Part shown: positions 3,430 to 10,329 of the stretch, piece by piece
Numbering within the stretch: position 1 is the stretch's first letter
Layout: each line of letters starts with the position of its first letter
Source: Rikenellaceae bacterium
GTDB taxonomy: Bacteria > Bacteroidota > Bacteroidia > Bacteroidales > Rikenellaceae
Direction: 5' to 3'
Length of the DNA: 42,697 nucleotides
Assembly: GCA_017415005.1 (NCBI GenBank)
Contig: JAFQJK010000031.1
Span: forward strand, 1-42,697
The notes under the pieces: model-generated
Told to the model about the DNA's origin: nothing
Seen by the model: only the letters and a program-made list of their open reading frames with translations
The model's database searches: none
Position numbers and translations under genes: made by a program

Positions 3430-3915
3430 CTATTTCTCAAGCGTACGCTCGATATACGACTTGTAGTCCTTGGTCACGGGCTTATATTCGTCGCCCTCGA
3501 ACAACGGCGATGAGATCATATAGTCGGCGCTCGAGCGGTCGATGGCCGTGGGCACGTTGTACAGCGTGGCCAGGCGCAGTAGCGCCTTGACATCGACATC
3601 GTGCGGCTGGGCCTGCATCGGGTCCCAGAAGAAGATCAGCATATCGATGTTGCCCTCGGCGATCAGCGAACCGAGCTGCTGGTCGCCGCCGAGCGGACCC
3701 GACTTGAGCAGCGTGATATCGAAACGGCCGTGATTGTTGTCGCCACGGCGATCCATCAGCGTATTGGCCACCATGCGTCCCGTCGTCCCGGTACAAATCA
3801 GGTGGTGTTTGAGCAGGACTTCCCAGTTCCAGTCGACCCATTCGGCCAGGTCGCGCTTCATGTTGTCGTGTGCGACCAGTGCGATTCTTCTTTTCTTTTC
3901 CATATCATTGTTCAT
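3430..3915 (-). CDS. mgsA: Methylglyoxal synthase
   Basis: The product has 161 residues from the ATG at 3915, or 157 from the ATG at 3903 (E. coli 152). It converts dihydroxyacetone phosphate to methylglyoxal and phosphate, a cytosolic bypass of lower glycolysis under phosphate limitation or sugar-phosphate stress. Hallmarks are all present: IALVAHD near the N-terminus, the phosphate-binding TGTTG, SGPLGGDQQ with the catalytic Asp, FFWDP, and the HDVDVKALLRLA block. A TACCTTTG element at 3926-3933 gives it its own promoter with a very short leader, which slightly favours the 3903 start. It is the last gene of the minus-strand run and has a strong terminator. Confidence 0.95.
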   Translation of the reverse strand: MNNDMEKKRRIALVAHDNMKRDLAEWVDWNWEVLLKHHLICTGTTGRMVANTLMDRRGDNNHGRFDITLLKSGPLGGDQQLGSLIAEGNIDMLIFFWDPMQAQPHDVDVKALLRLATLYNVPTAIDRSSADYMISSPLFEGDEYKPVTKDYKSYIERTLEK

Positions 3916-3925
3916 GTTTCCACGG

Positions 3926-3933
3926 CAAAGGTA
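3926..3933 (-). promoter_or_regulatory. Promoter -7 element for mgsA
   Basis: TACCTTTG on the minus strand matches the Bacteroidetes TAnnTTTG -7 box. It lies 10 bases before the first ATG and 22 before the second. No convincing -33 TTTG at 19 bp was found. Confidence 0.6.
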
Positions 3934-3968
3934 TGAAAAACAGTCCAAAAAGAGACCCGCACGGCCTG

Positions 3969-4820
3969 TTATTTAACCATAAATTTATTGCGGCAGACAA
4001 AGTGCGGGTTGTGCAGGCTCTCCTTGTTGTAGCAGAGCGCGGCACCCTCGCCGTCACCGCGCAGCTCGCACAGCGAGCCGCCGGCCGCCTCGAGGATAGC
4101 CTGCCCGGCCGCCGTATCCCATTCATAGGTGGGCGACGTGCGCGGATAGTAGTCGACCGTGCCCTCGGCCAGCAGACACAGCTTGTAGGAGCTCCCCTGC
4201 TCGACGATCCGCGCATCGGGGTGTTGCATCCTGACCCGGTCGATATGCGCGAACGTCTCATCGGTATTGTGCGACCGGCTGATGGCGATCACGATAGGAT
4301 CGTTGGCCTGCGTGGTGACCGGCAGCCGGTCGGCGCCCTCGAAAAGAGCCTCATAGGCCTCTTCGGCCGTAGCATCGGCCGGGACACGCTCCTTGCGGAA
4401 CGCCCCGATCCTGTCGTCGCTGAAGTAAATGCGTCCGATATACGGGACATAGACGACACCGATAGCCGGGTGGTTGTCGCACATCAGCGCGATATTGATC
4501 GTGAACTCGCCGTTGCCTTTGAGAAACTCCTTGGTCCCATCGAGCGGGTCGACCATCCAGAAAAGGTCCCACCTGCGGCGCTCCTCGTAAAGCAGGTCGC
4601 GCCCCTCCTCGCTCAGCAGCGGAATGCGGGTCTGGCCCAGGTACTCCTTGATCAGCGTATGGGCTTCACGGTCGGCCAGCGTGATCGGCGTGTGGTCGCT
4701 CTTGATGTCGATCACATAGTCGTCACAGCTGTTATATATGTCAAGTATACGTGCGCCTGCCCTCAAGGCTGCATTGTAGGCCTTGGTCAGCAGGTATTCG
4801 CGTTGTTCCCGATTCAACAT
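3969..4820 (-). CDS. cysQ: 3'(2'),5'-bisphosphate nucleotidase CysQ
   Basis: The product has 283 residues of the inositol-monophosphatase superfamily. It hydrolyses 3'-phosphoadenosine 5'-phosphate (and PAPS) to AMP (APS), which keeps toxic PAP low. The metal-binding motifs are visible in order: LLSEEG (motif with the catalytic Glu), WMVDPLDGTKEF (DPxDGT) and YEWDTAAGQAILEAAGG near the C-terminus (WDxAAG). The TKEF and KGNGEFT segment is typical of CysQ rather than inositol monophosphatase. It sits 39 bases after the GH31 gene and 53 bases before mgsA on the same strand. Confidence 0.93.
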   Translation of the reverse strand: MLNREQREYLLTKAYNAALRAGARILDIYNSCDDYVIDIKSDHTPITLADREAHTLIKEYLGQTRIPLLSEEGRDLLYEERRRWDLFWMVDPLDGTKEFLKGNGEFTINIALMCDNHPAIGVVYVPYIGRIYFSDDRIGAFRKERVPADATAEEAYEALFEGADRLPVTTQANDPIVIAISRSHNTDETFAHIDRVRMQHPDARIVEQGSSYKLCLLAEGTVDYYPRTSPTYEWDTAAGQAILEAAGGSLCELRGDGEGAALCYNKESLHNPHFVCRNKFMVK

Positions 4821-4859
4821 GGCAGTAGATTTAGGCAGTATCGTGTAAGCGCAGTGCAG

Positions 4860-6431
4860 CTATTTGTCGCCCTTGGCCGGGCGTTGTTCGAAATATAGCA
4901 GCCGGTCGGGCGCCACGGCGATCTCGGTGACCAGCGGGCCCTTGTAGCGCTTGCCCCCGGCATCGTACCAGACCCCCTTGGGGAAGCGGACCAGCCGGCG
5001 GTCGGTCGAGTCGAGCACCGGGGCGATCAGATAGCGCGACCCGAGCATGAACTGGTCGGGGCAATCGGCAAAACCGTTGCGGGGAAACTGGTAGGCCATA
5101 TGGCGCAGCATCGGCTCACCCACCCGGACCGCGTCGCGGGCCAGCTCGGCAAGATAAGGCCCGAACAGCTCACGGAGCCTCACCGCTTCGCGGAACGGCC
5201 CGAGGTCGGCCCCCGAGGCGACGCGCCACGGGGCGAAACCGATATTCATCACCGGCATCGCGGCAGCTTGTTGCAGGTAGCGCAACAGCAAACGCGGATC
5301 GTCCGACGATCCGGCCCCATCCGCCGGAAGGGGCCGGCAGAACGGATAGCCCACCAAGCCGGCCGAGAGGATATCGGCCTGCCCCGAGGCCAGGAACTCC
5401 CAGTCGAACGGGCTACCGGCGGGCAGACCGTTGATATACGGCGTGAAGGGGGTATCGAATCCCGGAGCGTACTCGCAGAGCTCGATCCCTTCGCCCAGAC
5501 TGGCCCATCCCTTCATAAAAGCGGCCAGCCGCTCGCCCTGCAAGGTGGCGACGACAGTACCCGCATCGAAAAGAAAACCGTCAACGCCATACTCGGCGCG
5601 CAGTTTTGCAAGCTGCGCACGCATGCGCGCCGCCTCGTCGGGATTGCCCGGGTCGAGGCAAAGGTGGTAGCCCGATGCATTGCTGACGACCGTCGGCCGG
5701 CCATCGGCACCGCACAGGAAGCGCCCGGAAGCGGGATTGCGGAAATTGCGACCTGCCGCCGGGACATAGGGATTCACGGTCAGCATGACCTTGAACCCCT
5801 TGGCGTGCAGGTCGGCGATGAGCGTCCGCGGATCGGCAAAATACTCGGGATCGAACATGAACGAGCCGTCGGACGCCTGCCAGCCGTCGCCAACGAGCAG
5901 GATACCCGCGGGGAAGCCGTGCTGCACGATCTGTGCGGCATAGTCGGCCAGCGACGCGGCATCGGGAGCGGGGAGCTCATGGCCGGTGTCGTACAGCGGC
6001 AGGTTAAAGAAATCGGCCGAGGGAGAGGGCCGGGACGCATCGCCCTGCTCCGTACGGAGCAGGTTGCGCAGGCAGCAGACCGTATAGGCCGCACGCAACG
6101 TGCGGCCGCCCGAAACGGCTTTGACCTCCTCGACGTCGGAGCCGATGATCAGTTCGTCACCGGTAAACTCGATCTCGAGCGGAGCACTGCTCCAGATATA
6201 GCGTCCCGCTGTCGAGACGAGGAACGGCGTAGTGAGGCTCGACGCATCGTAGTCGGCCGTATTGACCTTGAACGGCTTGGTGAAAGGCTCCTCGTGGCCT
6301 CCGTTGACGAACACGCCCCACCATTGCTCGCCGCGAAGCACGGCGATCCGGGAAGTGAATCCGGCTGCCTGAGCCGTCACGGCAAGCAGCAGCCCGAAGC
6401 TGATAAAAAGAAGTGACAGTTTCTTTCGCAT
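4860..6431 (-). CDS. Secreted glycoside hydrolase family 31 protein
   Basis: The product has 523 residues with a cleavable signal peptide ending about AQAA at residue 23, so it acts in the periplasm or at the surface. An N-terminal beta-sandwich is followed by a TIM barrel. The barrel carries DGWQASDGSFMFDPEYF, the strand-4 segment GVDGFLFDAG with the presumed nucleophile Asp, and the GH31-type REAVRLRELFGPYLAEL helix. The FPKGVWYD strand belongs to the C-terminal domain. At about 520 residues it is shorter than typical alpha-glucosidases. The GYPFC segment recalls the MYORG/YihQ-like side of GH31, so the substrate could be an alpha-galactoside or other alpha-linkage. It lies 9 bases after the DUF4286 gene. 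Confidence 0.85.
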   Translation of the reverse strand: MRKKLSLLFISFGLLLAVTAQAAGFTSRIAVLRGEQWWGVFVNGGHEEPFTKPFKVNTADYDASSLTTPFLVSTAGRYIWSSAPLEIEFTGDELIIGSDVEEVKAVSGGRTLRAAYTVCCLRNLLRTEQGDASRPSPSADFFNLPLYDTGHELPAPDAASLADYAAQIVQHGFPAGILLVGDGWQASDGSFMFDPEYFADPRTLIADLHAKGFKVMLTVNPYVPAAGRNFRNPASGRFLCGADGRPTVVSNASGYHLCLDPGNPDEAARMRAQLAKLRAEYGVDGFLFDAGTVVATLQGERLAAFMKGWASLGEGIELCEYAPGFDTPFTPYINGLPAGSPFDWEFLASGQADILSAGLVGYPFCRPLPADGAGSSDDPRLLLRYLQQAAAMPVMNIGFAPWRVASGADLGPFREAVRLRELFGPYLAELARDAVRVGEPMLRHMAYQFPRNGFADCPDQFMLGSRYLIAPVLDSTDRRLVRFPKGVWYDAGGKRYKGPLVTEIAVAPDRLLYFEQRPAKGDK

Positions 6432-6440
6432 GCTCCCCCG

Positions 6441-6746
6441 TTAATAGTCCTCTTTTTTAAGCAACGAAGTGAACCAGACCACCTTATCCCCGAAGAGCGG
6501 CGCGGCGATCTGCGCGTACTCGGCAAAGATCTCGCCGGTCAACACGCGGTAGGCCGGAATATCGGGCGCTTCAGTCTGGATCGAATAGGTGAAATGTTCG
6601 GTGATCTCTTCCGAGACGACCCGCGTGAACACCGGCCTGGCGAAACCCCGGTCGATGATCAGCGGGATATAGTGTTTGCGGACAAGGTCGAGCCACTGCG
6701 TCTGCACGGCAGGATCGACCATGAACGAAGTGTTGACGATGTACAT
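6441..6746 (-). CDS. DUF4286-family small protein
   Basis: The product has 101 residues and matches the DUF4286 pattern: it opens with MYIVNTSF, has a central EEITEHFTYSIQ and ends in GDKVVWFTSLLKKEDY. It looks like a ferredoxin-like alpha/beta fold of the dimeric barrel type. No catalytic residues are obvious and no function is known to me. It is widespread in Bacteroidetes. It sits 33 bases after the GT2-like gene and 9 bases before GH31, so it is probably in one transcription unit with them. Confidence 0.85.
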   Translation of the reverse strand: MYIVNTSFMVDPAVQTQWLDLVRKHYIPLIIDRGFARPVFTRVVSEEITEHFTYSIQTEAPDIPAYRVLTGEIFAEYAQIAAPLFGDKVVWFTSLLKKEDY

Positions 6747-6779: not shown

Positions 6780-7976
6780 TTACGGATTCACGAAATTTTT
6801 AATCCGCAACGTGCGGTACACGTAATGGAACGGGTACAGCAAGACTCCTGCCAATGTGTGCCGGAAAAGGATGCTTCCGGACTTGCCCTGAACGGGCTCG
6901 ACGACCTGGAGGCCGAGCAACGCAGCCACGACAGCGCAGCAATACAGATAAATGAAGAGACAGCCCATCAGACGCAATCCGCCCCAATCGGCCGTAACGG
7001 CATAATAAGCCGAAAAACAGATCAGCCCGGCAATGACGACCAGAAAGCAGGCCTTCAATAAAACCGAGCGTGTCGAGATACCATACTTACGGCATGAGGC
7101 GAGGTGTTTCACATCGCTGTAAGCCAGCACCTCAGGGATCAGGACCGTCCTCTCCTGATGGATAGCGCCCTGCGACTCTTCAACCATCGTCGTCATCCGT
7201 CGGAACAGCTCGGCATCGAAACAGCAGTCAGCATGAAACCCGCCGGCCTTGATGAGCGTCTCACGTTTGAACAGGACCGATACGTAGCGGAACCGGCCGT
7301 AAGCCTCGGGAGTCTCGAGTCCGGCCCCGTGGCAAAGCATGTCGATCTTACGGTCGAGCCGCTGCGGGACCGAAGCGCTCATACGGTCGGTATGGAAACA
7401 GCGCAGCGCATAAAGCGACCCGTGCGGAGAGCGCGACATCTCGAGCAGCAGACGCTGCAACGCGTCGGGATCGAGGCGTGTCCGCTCTTCGAAGCAGATC
7501 ACGTATTCGTGGTTGCTGATATTGGCGCCGCAATTGAAAATATGGTGCAGCGCCTCCTCCCGGCGGTCGACCAGCGTAAAGCGATTGTACCGCCTGATAC
7601 GTGACGAATAGATGTTACGCACCTGCTCGTAGATCAGCTCGCTCGGTCCGTGCGTACTGCTCTTGATCATCTCGTAGCGCAGCAGCAGCTCGTGGATGTC
7701 GGGGATACGGGCGAAGTCGCAGATGTAGATCAACTCGTAGTTGGCATAGTCGAGAGAGAGCCAGCGCTCAAGGTCGGGGATCGACCCCGAGCCCGCCACG
7801 ATCACCGAGATATGCGTATCGAGCGGGCTTTCGAGCCGGCGGTTCAGGCGCGAGAGAAACAGGTTGCGTCTGTGCCGGCTCCGCTTGACAAAGCGCAGAC
7901 CCCGGATCATGACCGCCCCTGCAGCAAAAGTGGTGAGCAGGGTGAAGATAACGAAAGCCAGGGTCAGTGCGTGCAT
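6780..7976 (-). CDS. GT2-like membrane glycosyltransferase homologue with degenerate active site
   Basis: The product has 398 residues: one N-terminal membrane helix (about 3-24), a GT-A-like cytosolic domain (55-290) and two or three C-terminal membrane segments (about 305-327, 334-357, 372-388). That topology is typical of processive polysaccharide synthases. The fold markers HISVIV, the LxSLDYxNYEL segment, PDALQRLLLEM and AGGF align with GT2. However, the DxD site reads F-E-E-R-T (162-166), the later ED base motif reads FDAE (253-256), and no QxxRW is present. It may be a pseudoenzyme or an unusual transferase. It follows the HEAT gene by 24 bases. Confidence 0.72.
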   Translation of the reverse strand: MHALTLAFVIFTLLTTFAAGAVMIRGLRFVKRSRHRRNLFLSRLNRRLESPLDTHISVIVAGSGSIPDLERWLSLDYANYELIYICDFARIPDIHELLLRYEMIKSSTHGPSELIYEQVRNIYSSRIRRYNRFTLVDRREEALHHIFNCGANISNHEYVICFEERTRLDPDALQRLLLEMSRSPHGSLYALRCFHTDRMSASVPQRLDRKIDMLCHGAGLETPEAYGRFRYVSVLFKRETLIKAGGFHADCCFDAELFRRMTTMVEESQGAIHQERTVLIPEVLAYSDVKHLASCRKYGISTRSVLLKACFLVVIAGLICFSAYYAVTADWGGLRLMGCLFIYLYCCAVVAALLGLQVVEPVQGKSGSILFRHTLAGVLLYPFHYVYRTLRIKNFVNP

Positions 7977-8000
7977 AATCCGGGAACGGTGTTCAGCAGT

Positions 8001-8993
8001 TTAGTGAGCCGTCGCAGCGATCGGACGCAGCGGGATGGTATGTCCCGAGATCATAAGGTTGAGGTATGCCGCCAGCGGACTGTCGCCCTCGTACTTGGCG
8101 AAACGACTGAGGATCGGGGTCGAATATTGGGCACGGACCAGCATACGGTAGAACATCTTGCGGTCGTGCTCGCCCATCTGGTCGAGCGCACGGTACACGG
8201 CGCCGTCGATCTGGCTGAAGCGCACGATGACCAGTACGCGCAGCGCACCGTCGCGGATCGCCGGATCGAGGCTGTCGACCAGCTCGAGGATGACCGGACG
8301 GTATTTCTGCAGGTCGAAATAGGCGATCATGCTCAGGCCCAGCAGCACACAGTTCTTCCGGCCCGACTCGAGCAGGCGACGGCAGCAATCGCTGACCGGC
8401 ACGAAACGCGCCGCCAGCAGTCGGCAGATCTCTTTCTGGCCGCTGAGCGTCAGCTCGTGAGGATAACGCATCAGCATGTCGGCCGTCTTCTCGGGGCAGT
8501 AGTTCAGGTGAGCCAGCAGCGCATAGAGCCGCACATCGGGATTCTCGCTGCGGAGAAAACCGGTAATCTGCTTGAGCGTATCGAACGTCGGGACGATCTC
8601 GGTATAGAAGCGGAGCAGATTGGCTCGCTCGGCGTCATCGGCGCGACATATATCATTGCACAGGCGCTTCTCGAGACCCAGGTCACGGAACAGACCGAGC
8701 AGGCGCTCACGCTCGCGTCCGTACAACTGTGCCGCCAGCTTCGAGATGAGCAGCGTGAGCGTCGAGGCGCCGATCGGACTCCCGAGCAACGGGAAACGGA
8801 CTTTACGGACCGGCTCTTCGCTATCGAGGAAACGATACAGCTCAGCCCGGTACTGCGCCTCAAGGCTTAGGCTTGACGCCTTGAGCGACAACACGGCCCG
8901 GCGCAGGCGAAAGCCGGCCGCAAGGATCAGAGCGATTACGACAAGCGCTCCGGACAAAATATTCAGCAGCAGGGAAAGGATAGCGTCTGTCAT
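8001..8993 (-). CDS. HEAT-repeat-like membrane-anchored protein
   Basis: The product has 330 residues. Residues about 5-27 form one hydrophobic helix followed by RLRR, so the rest is predicted cytosolic. The remainder is almost entirely helical and reads as repeated antiparallel helix pairs, such as NPDVRLYALLAHLNYCP and DPAIRDGALRVLVIVRF, in HEAT/Armadillo style; such scaffolds bind other proteins. No enzyme motif is seen. Its start overlaps the stop of the pseudo-receiver gene by four bases (ATGA), and the GT2-like gene follows after 24 bases, so the three products probably act together at the membrane. Confidence 0.72.
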   Translation of the reverse strand: MTDAILSLLLNILSGALVVIALILAAGFRLRRAVLSLKASSLSLEAQYRAELYRFLDSEEPVRKVRFPLLGSPIGASTLTLLISKLAAQLYGRERERLLGLFRDLGLEKRLCNDICRADDAERANLLRFYTEIVPTFDTLKQITGFLRSENPDVRLYALLAHLNYCPEKTADMLMRYPHELTLSGQKEICRLLAARFVPVSDCCRRLLESGRKNCVLLGLSMIAYFDLQKYRPVILELVDSLDPAIRDGALRVLVIVRFSQIDGAVYRALDQMGEHDRKMFYRMLVRAQYSTPILSRFAKYEGDSPLAAYLNLMISGHTIPLRPIAATAH

Positions 8994-9352
8994 AAGGCAA
9001 GTTTTTTATTAAGTTTATCCATCAATCGGGGGAGGTTAAGGGGCAGCGTCAGGTATTCGTCGGCACCCGACTCGAAAAGGCTCATGACCGTACTCTCGTA
9101 TTGGACCCACGAGAGGACATAAACCGCCGGCCGGGAAATAGACCGGTCGGACTTGATGCGGCGGATCAGCTCGCAATATTCATCAATCGGCTTACTGTAA
9201 TGAACCAGCACTGCGTTACAACTATCATCCGCGGCTTTCGCCAGAAGCTCGTCTTCCGTACTGATATCCGCCACCGCGGCCCCCTGTTGTCGCAGTCGAT
9301 GCGAAACAAGGCCGCCCAGTAGCTCGTCGGGACACCAAATAAATACTTTCAT
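8990..9352 (-). CDS. Stand-alone receiver-like domain lacking the phospho-acceptor
   Basis: The product has 120 residues, the size of a single CheY-type receiver. The fold markers are present: an initial strand KVFIW, a strand NAVLVHYSKP, VYVLS, and GADEYLTLPL at the beta5 turn. The functional residues are not. The acidic pair after strand 1 is Cys7-Pro8, the phospho-accepting Asp is His51, and the conserved Lys is Leu103; only the Ser/Thr switch position survives (Ser81). It is therefore most likely a non-phosphorylatable pseudo-receiver used for protein binding. It is the first gene of the cassette and is coupled to the HEAT gene by an ATGA overlap. Confidence 0.75.
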   Translation of the reverse strand: MKVFIWCPDELLGGLVSHRLRQQGAAVADISTEDELLAKAADDSCNAVLVHYSKPIDEYCELIRRIKSDRSISRPAVYVLSWVQYESTVMSLFESGADEYLTLPLNLPRLMDKLNKKLAL

Positions 9353-9675: not shown

Positions 9676-9706
9676 TTTGTTTTTTAGCGAATTATCCATA
9701 CCTTTG
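9676..9706 (+). promoter_or_regulatory. Promoter of rplU-rpmA
   Basis: TTTG at 9676-9679, a 19-bp spacer and TACCTTTG at 9699-9706 make a full match to the Bacteroidetes promoter consensus. It lies about 30 bases before the rplU ATG, leaving a short A+T-rich leader without a Shine-Dalgarno sequence. Confidence 0.85.
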
Positions 9707-9736: not shown

Positions 9737-10048
9737 ATGTACGTAATCGTAGAAATCGCAGGCCAACAATTCAAAGTTGAAAAAGGTCGTAAGCTCTATG
9801 TCAACCGTCTTCAGGGGGATGAAGGTTCCTCTGTGAGCTTCGACAAAGTCCTGCTAACAGACAACGACGGTCAGGTTAAGGTCGGCACACCTGTAGTGGA
9901 AGGGGCCGCAGTGAAAGCCAAAATTCTCCGCCATCTGAAGGATGACAAGGTGATTGTCTTCAAGAAGAAGCGCCGCAAGGGATACAAGGTTAAGAACGGC
10001 CACCGGCAGTTCCTGACCCAGCTCCTGGTGGAAGACATTGTAGCATAA
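9737..10048 (+). CDS. rplU: 50S ribosomal protein L21
   Basis: The product has 103 residues, the normal L21 size. It has the canonical start MYVIVEIAGQQFKVEKG and the Lys/Arg-rich KKKRRKGYKVKNGHRQ segment that contacts 23S rRNA. L21 is a core component of the large subunit. It is followed after 20 bases by rpmA, the usual bacterial order, and both share the promoter at 9676-9706. Confidence 0.98.
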   Translation: MYVIVEIAGQQFKVEKGRKLYVNRLQGDEGSSVSFDKVLLTDNDGQVKVGTPVVEGAAVKAKILRHLKDDKVIVFKKKRRKGYKVKNGHRQFLTQLLVEDIVA

Positions 10049-10068
10049 CGCATTAAACTCGAAAGAAA

Positions 10069-10329
10069 ATGGCACATAAAAAAGGTGTAGGTAGCTCGAA
10101 GAACGGTCGCGAATCAGAAAGCAAGCGACTGGGCGTAAAGCTTTTCGGCGGTCAGTTCGCCAAAGCCGGCAATATCCTGGTCCGTCAACGCGGAACCGTG
10201 CACAACGCGGGTGCTAATGTAGGCATGGGCAAGGATCACACTCTGTTCGCCCTGGTGGACGGCACGGTGACCTTCTGCAAGAAGGCAGAGGGCAAGTCTT
10301 ATGTATCGGTAACCCCTATCGCGGAATAA
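10069..10329 (+). CDS. rpmA: 50S ribosomal protein L27
   Basis: The product has 86 residues. It begins [20 protein letters not shown], the L27 tail that reaches the peptidyl-transferase centre, and continues with the conserved [10 protein letters not shown] and [14 protein letters not shown] blocks. There is no N-terminal extension of the kind cleaved in Firmicutes. It is the second gene of the rplU operon and is closed by a strong terminator 22 bases after the stop. Confidence 0.98.

Follow-up and report, generated by a model that had tools for sequence, protein, structure and literature searches.

The three-gene cassette in the window, the 42,697-nucleotide stretch of Rikenellaceae bacterium DNA (contig JAFQJK010000031.1) analysed here, is a degenerate, family-specific descendant of a Bacteroidota receiver (REC)-(YaiO)-HEAT-GT2 module. 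On balance, and with modest confidence, we favor the reading that its products make up a putative phosphorylation-independent scaffold or signalling complex at the inner membrane, built on a pseudo-synthase and derived from a phosphorylation-controlled ancestor. Throughout, "family" denotes the host family of the window, and "trio" the receiver, HEAT, and GT genes.

The trio lies on the reverse strand, and the open reading frames agree with the initial annotation on its layout: a single-domain pseudo-receiver of 120 amino acids (8990..9352), a transmembrane (TM)-anchored HEAT-repeat protein of 330 amino acids (8001..8993), and a pseudo-GT2 membrane protein of 398 amino acids with a hyaluronan-synthase-like fold (6780..7976). 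The receiver and HEAT frames share the 4 bases of an ATGA overlap (8990-8993), and a 24-base gap separates HEAT from GT. Upstream stands the divergent rplU-rpmA pair (9737..10329, forward strand), which anchors the position of this locus in relatives; a second anchor, outside the cassette, is the downstream block of DUF4286, GH31-like, cysQ, and MGS-like genes (3430..6746, reverse strand), which is present at the locus even without the cassette. The family match of the GH31-like secreted protein (4860-6431) spans only part of the TIM barrel, and this protein stays with DUF4286 and cysQ at cassette-less loci too. Just upstream of rplU, an exact Bacteroidota-type promoter pattern, TTTG-N19..21-TANNTTTG, occurs at 9676-9706 on the forward strand; the window holds 2 matches to this pattern vs 0.06 expected.

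Against Pfam, the receiver matches PF00072 at an E-value of 1e-4, below the curated cut-off, and it shows clear homology to intact receivers in profile search. The HEAT protein, which has a hydrophobic N-terminus, matches PF13646 (HEAT_2) weakly (E 4e-3); its model (pLDDT 92.8) consists of a long N-terminal helix (residues 2-57) and then an alpha-solenoid of serial, paired helices, as in HEAT-repeat proteins, and in Foldseek it retrieved generic repeat proteins only, at modest E-values. For the GT, neither Pfam nor the curated libraries gave a match. Its AlphaFold model (pLDDT 85.6) has a membrane GT2 fold in which one long helix lies at the N-terminus and three lie at the C-terminus, and its best PDB match is the hyaluronan synthase 8snc (Z 18.0, rmsd 3.9 over 328 residues), that is, a membrane GT-A fold with N- and C-terminal TM helices. 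The AlphaFold models bear out the earlier description of a membrane-anchored HEAT protein beside a membrane protein with synthase topology. In fold and topology, the GT resembles the PgaC/IcaA and hyaluronan-synthase-like GT2 synthases, but unlike them it has no Pfam match and lacks every GT2 catalytic motif.

The catalytic signatures of both the receiver and the GT2-like protein are lost, as had been read from the window at the outset. In the receiver, the phospho-Asp position (CheY D57; codon 51, 9200..9202, reverse strand) aligns with His and the conserved-Lys position (CheY K109; codon 103, 9044..9046, reverse strand) with Leu, and the equivalents of the DD pair are gone. Among family members, an acidic DD1, Asp at D57, and Lys at K109 are each found in 0/34 (the K109 position being Phe in 19 and Leu in 15), whereas outside the family D57 is Asp in 31/32 and K109 is Lys in 32/32. 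With a receiver fold by profile homology and both phospho-Asp and Lys replaced, the protein resembles the pseudo- or aspartate-less receivers (PMC12632262, PMC4395418); judging from these residues, standard phosphorylation cannot take place, which agrees with the phosphorylation independence initially proposed. Unlike those receivers, it is single-domain, and its gene stands together with those of a HEAT protein and a pseudo-GT2. According to review, both Y-T coupling residues are kept in only 47 % of pseudo-receivers (PMC12632262, PMC4395418), whereas most family receivers keep both (Ser or Thr at the T87 position in 29/34, Tyr at the K-3 position in 33/34). The K+2 position is V/L/I in 33/34 family members vs Phe in 20/32 outside, and this aliphatic class is said to favor active states of receivers (PMC12632262).

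In the window GT, the DxD position (residues 163-165, 7482..7490, reverse strand) reads E-E-R, and GED, KADALN, and QRxRW were not found by alignment; across the family, DxD, (G/A)ED, KADALN, and QxxRW/QRxRW occur in 0/36 copies as aligned. Retention of the membrane GT2 fold, together with the first Asp (VNDGS position, D87) in ~32/35 family copies, might suggest that the GT has kept enzymatic activity, using a remodelled active site or a novel chemistry, under the control of the receiver and HEAT protein. We consider this very improbable, as none of DxD, the KADALN Lys, the (G/A)ED Asp, and QxxRW is left and the former motif regions are little constrained.

The survey of relatives found the trio conserved together, as the initial annotation had supposed. 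In a first search of 81 same-family genomes, a HEAT match was obtained in 19, and at nearly all of these loci the receiver, HEAT, and GT genes follow the window's order; when 120 family genomes were searched with a GT profile, ~54 had a cassette-type match by our reading of the table. Among the 36 family loci examined, the REC-HEAT-GT order holds; one of them leaves its contig before the receiver (L019), and one has its GT split into two ORFs (L010). Because this order is kept at protein identities of mostly 20-30 %, the genes are more than chance neighbours. Most loci with long enough flanks have the divergent rplU-rpmA upstream and/or DUF4286, GH31-like, or cysQ genes downstream, and where the flank seen holds no anchor gene (L007, L008, L010, and L017), the trio is still together. 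Around rplU in 27 family genomes, picked mostly for having no strong cassette match, no cassette gene was found in 26, and in several cassette-less genomes rplU has DUF4286, the GH31-like gene, or cysQ as its immediate neighbour. Chance association is ruled out by the conserved order and this clean absence. These loci support joint inheritance of the trio, which occurs or is missing as a whole save for one partial case: in G387 (L143), a receiver and a shortened HEAT gene lie beside rplU, the GT is gone, and the genome has a second intact HEAT-GT2 system. Since it is missing from roughly half of the family genomes, the cassette is dispensable. A divergent subgroup (L007, L008, L010, L017, and L019) has a shorter HEAT protein and neither rplU nor cysQ in the flanks seen; its trio order is intact where the locus is complete, and catalysis was possibly lost there independently.

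Outside the family, the same genes are found in an intact state. An order-level HEAT profile gave matches, at the thresholds used, in 34/294 genomes of the order and 40/296 of the phylum; GT2 adjoins HEAT at nearly all loci with enough flank, and a receiver is nearby in many, often directly upstream. The full-length GT2s carry P-A-Y/F-N-E, NDG, DxD, (G/A)ED, and QRxRW with few exceptions (L109 and L120 read AAAYNE and NDAS; L112 and L121 are without the ED pattern as searched), and the intact homologues match TIGR03937 (PgaC_IcaA) below its cut-off. At several fully read loci, genes for a YaiO TPR-barrel protein and for REC or Hpt proteins occur as well. The intact module, receiver plus HEAT plus PgaC-like GT2, is widespread (L031-L039, L120-L129, and L161-L190), and its partners are often a YaiO TPR-barrel of the outer membrane, REC/Hpt, a protein of ~390 aa that has no Pfam match, or a membrane protein of the sulfatase family. 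It is apparently undescribed, as open-access papers contained no relevant description of a REC/HEAT/YaiO/GT2 system; on family membership only, it may be presumed to make and export polysaccharide.

The window cassette has homologues of this module's receiver, HEAT, and GT2 in the module's gene order, with the same membrane GT2 and TM-anchored HEAT protein. An intact phylum relative (L161) has an identical REC-HEAT-GT order, and in a genome of another Bacteroidales family, f113 (G367, L120), the chromosomal locus is also shared: a receiver with both Asp and Lys, HEAT, and GT2 stand beside the same divergent rplU-rpmA. Unlike the module, the window version has neither the residues for phosphorylation nor those for GT2 catalysis, and it comes without the YaiO porin and REC/Hpt proteins; the porin is absent from the cassette, PF19413 finds nothing in the window's genome (G000, 92 % complete), and YaiO is variable even among intact loci. 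The expectation that homologues would likewise lack their active sites therefore stood within the family, where no cassette copy is intact, but not at the order and phylum levels, where homologues are intact, and this split makes the loss of the active sites a lineage-specific event in which an active module was converted. In the most parsimonious history the module was converted at its existing locus, losing catalysis and, where once present, YaiO. All family copies group in the HEAT tree, on very long branches, and the GT tree sets L007/L008 apart from the remaining family copies; because of both features, a single loss of catalysis in the family appears likely but is not proven, and the exact sister group of the cassette is left unsettled by trees with such branches. 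Descent from the family's second HEAT-GT2-TPR system (L071-L077) is not favored, because the family HEAT profile matches the order-level REC-type copies (down to ~1e-28) far better than this paralogue (~1e-4 to 1e-5).

Between close pairs (NG86), dN/dS was 0.05-0.33 for the receiver, 0.12-0.43 for the GT, and 0.12-0.46 for HEAT, where at some loci the ORF start was extended across the receiver gene, which may distort the value. Selection on the trio is purifying, but the constraint is weak, since these figures are ~2-4 times those of the neighbouring cysQ (0.04-0.14). A simple pseudogene cluster is ruled out by the open frames and dN/dS of 0.05-0.46; slow decay remains a rival. Mean pairwise identity over receiver residues 1-70 is 0.25 in the family vs 0.37 outside, a drop that, like that of the GT, is if anything understated, the outside sets being taxonomically wider. 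Over residues 71-114, the β4-α4-β5-α5 half (9011..9142, reverse strand), it is 0.50 vs 0.45, and HEAT conservation in the family is about equal to that outside or higher, rises that may partly reflect narrower family sampling. In the GT, residues 119-137 (VRNIYSSRIRRYNRFTLVD, 7566..7622, reverse strand) form a segment without a conservation drop: the family/outside identity ratio is 0.96 for residues 119-139 vs 0.28-0.75 in other segments, and RxxYRSRxRRY is still conserved at this hot spot. Judged from these identities, constraint has been redistributed, with the catalytic half of the receiver relaxed, its β4-α4-β5-α5 half kept, and HEAT not relaxed.

These patterns bear on whether the cassette is a slowly decaying relic, an operon that lost its porin and activity, does little, and is drifting to loss. 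Evolution is fast (between two species of the genus, the GT is 46 % identical vs 97 % for rplU), dN/dS is above that of cysQ, the cassette is missing from many family genomes, and partial decay is seen in G387 and in the split GT of L010. We nevertheless regard this reading as rather unlikely: frames are open with dN/dS well below 1 across many genera, constraint is concentrated at specific segments, and loss is mostly of the whole block.

The initial annotation had also suggested control of envelope polysaccharide export. This is not borne out for the window organism: its genome, 92 % complete, yielded neither an intact GT2 of this type nor a YaiO porin, so the polysaccharide link derives solely from the ancestor. 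When the order-level intact GT2 profile was run over the 120 family genomes, seven matched, all with the second HEAT-GT2-TPR system. In this second intact system (L071-L077, L122, and L123), after HEAT and GT2 come a TPR protein of ~950-990 aa that matches YaiO weakly and further envelope genes. The dead complex might act in trans on another envelope polysaccharide system, competing with or stabilizing an active synthase elsewhere; the ancestral module is a PgaC-like synthase system, and in G012 (same genus as the window) and G409 the dead cassette coexists with an intact second HEAT-GT2 system. Such a role seems quite improbable, since profile search detected no intact GT2 of this type in the window's genome or in most cassette carriers.

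The joint function of the trio we infer as follows, returning to the phosphorylation-independent complex. The three products would still assemble into a single complex at the inner membrane. Within it, the pseudo-receiver would be fixed in one state, probably active-like, because the Y-T coupling residues are kept and K+2 is aliphatic (cf. PMC12632262). It would dock via its β4-α4-β5-α5 half on the cytosolic HEAT solenoid, which in turn would hold the pseudo-synthase, perhaps via the RSRxRRY segment. Binding would be the complex's mode of action, whether as a scaffold, as a sensor, or by titrating a partner at the inner membrane, and its control would come from a ligand or from how much of it is made rather than from phosphorylation. 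More tentatively, and at somewhat less than even chances, a whole signal-controlled polysaccharide synthase module may have been converted as one in Alistipes-type gut bacteria into a non-catalytic complex whose members still bind each other and which has taken on a new binding or sensing job.

The analysis further brings to light a widespread receiver-HEAT-GT2 system that we found nowhere described in the open-access literature searched. Pseudoenzymes are usually studied singly; here, a response regulator and its co-encoded synthase have lost their chemistry jointly, and the HEAT protein between the dead receiver and the dead synthase has not been relaxed. Active homologues exist phylum-wide, one of them at the same locus, and the family therefore offers a natural experiment on which surfaces of the receiver and the synthase carry the coupling.
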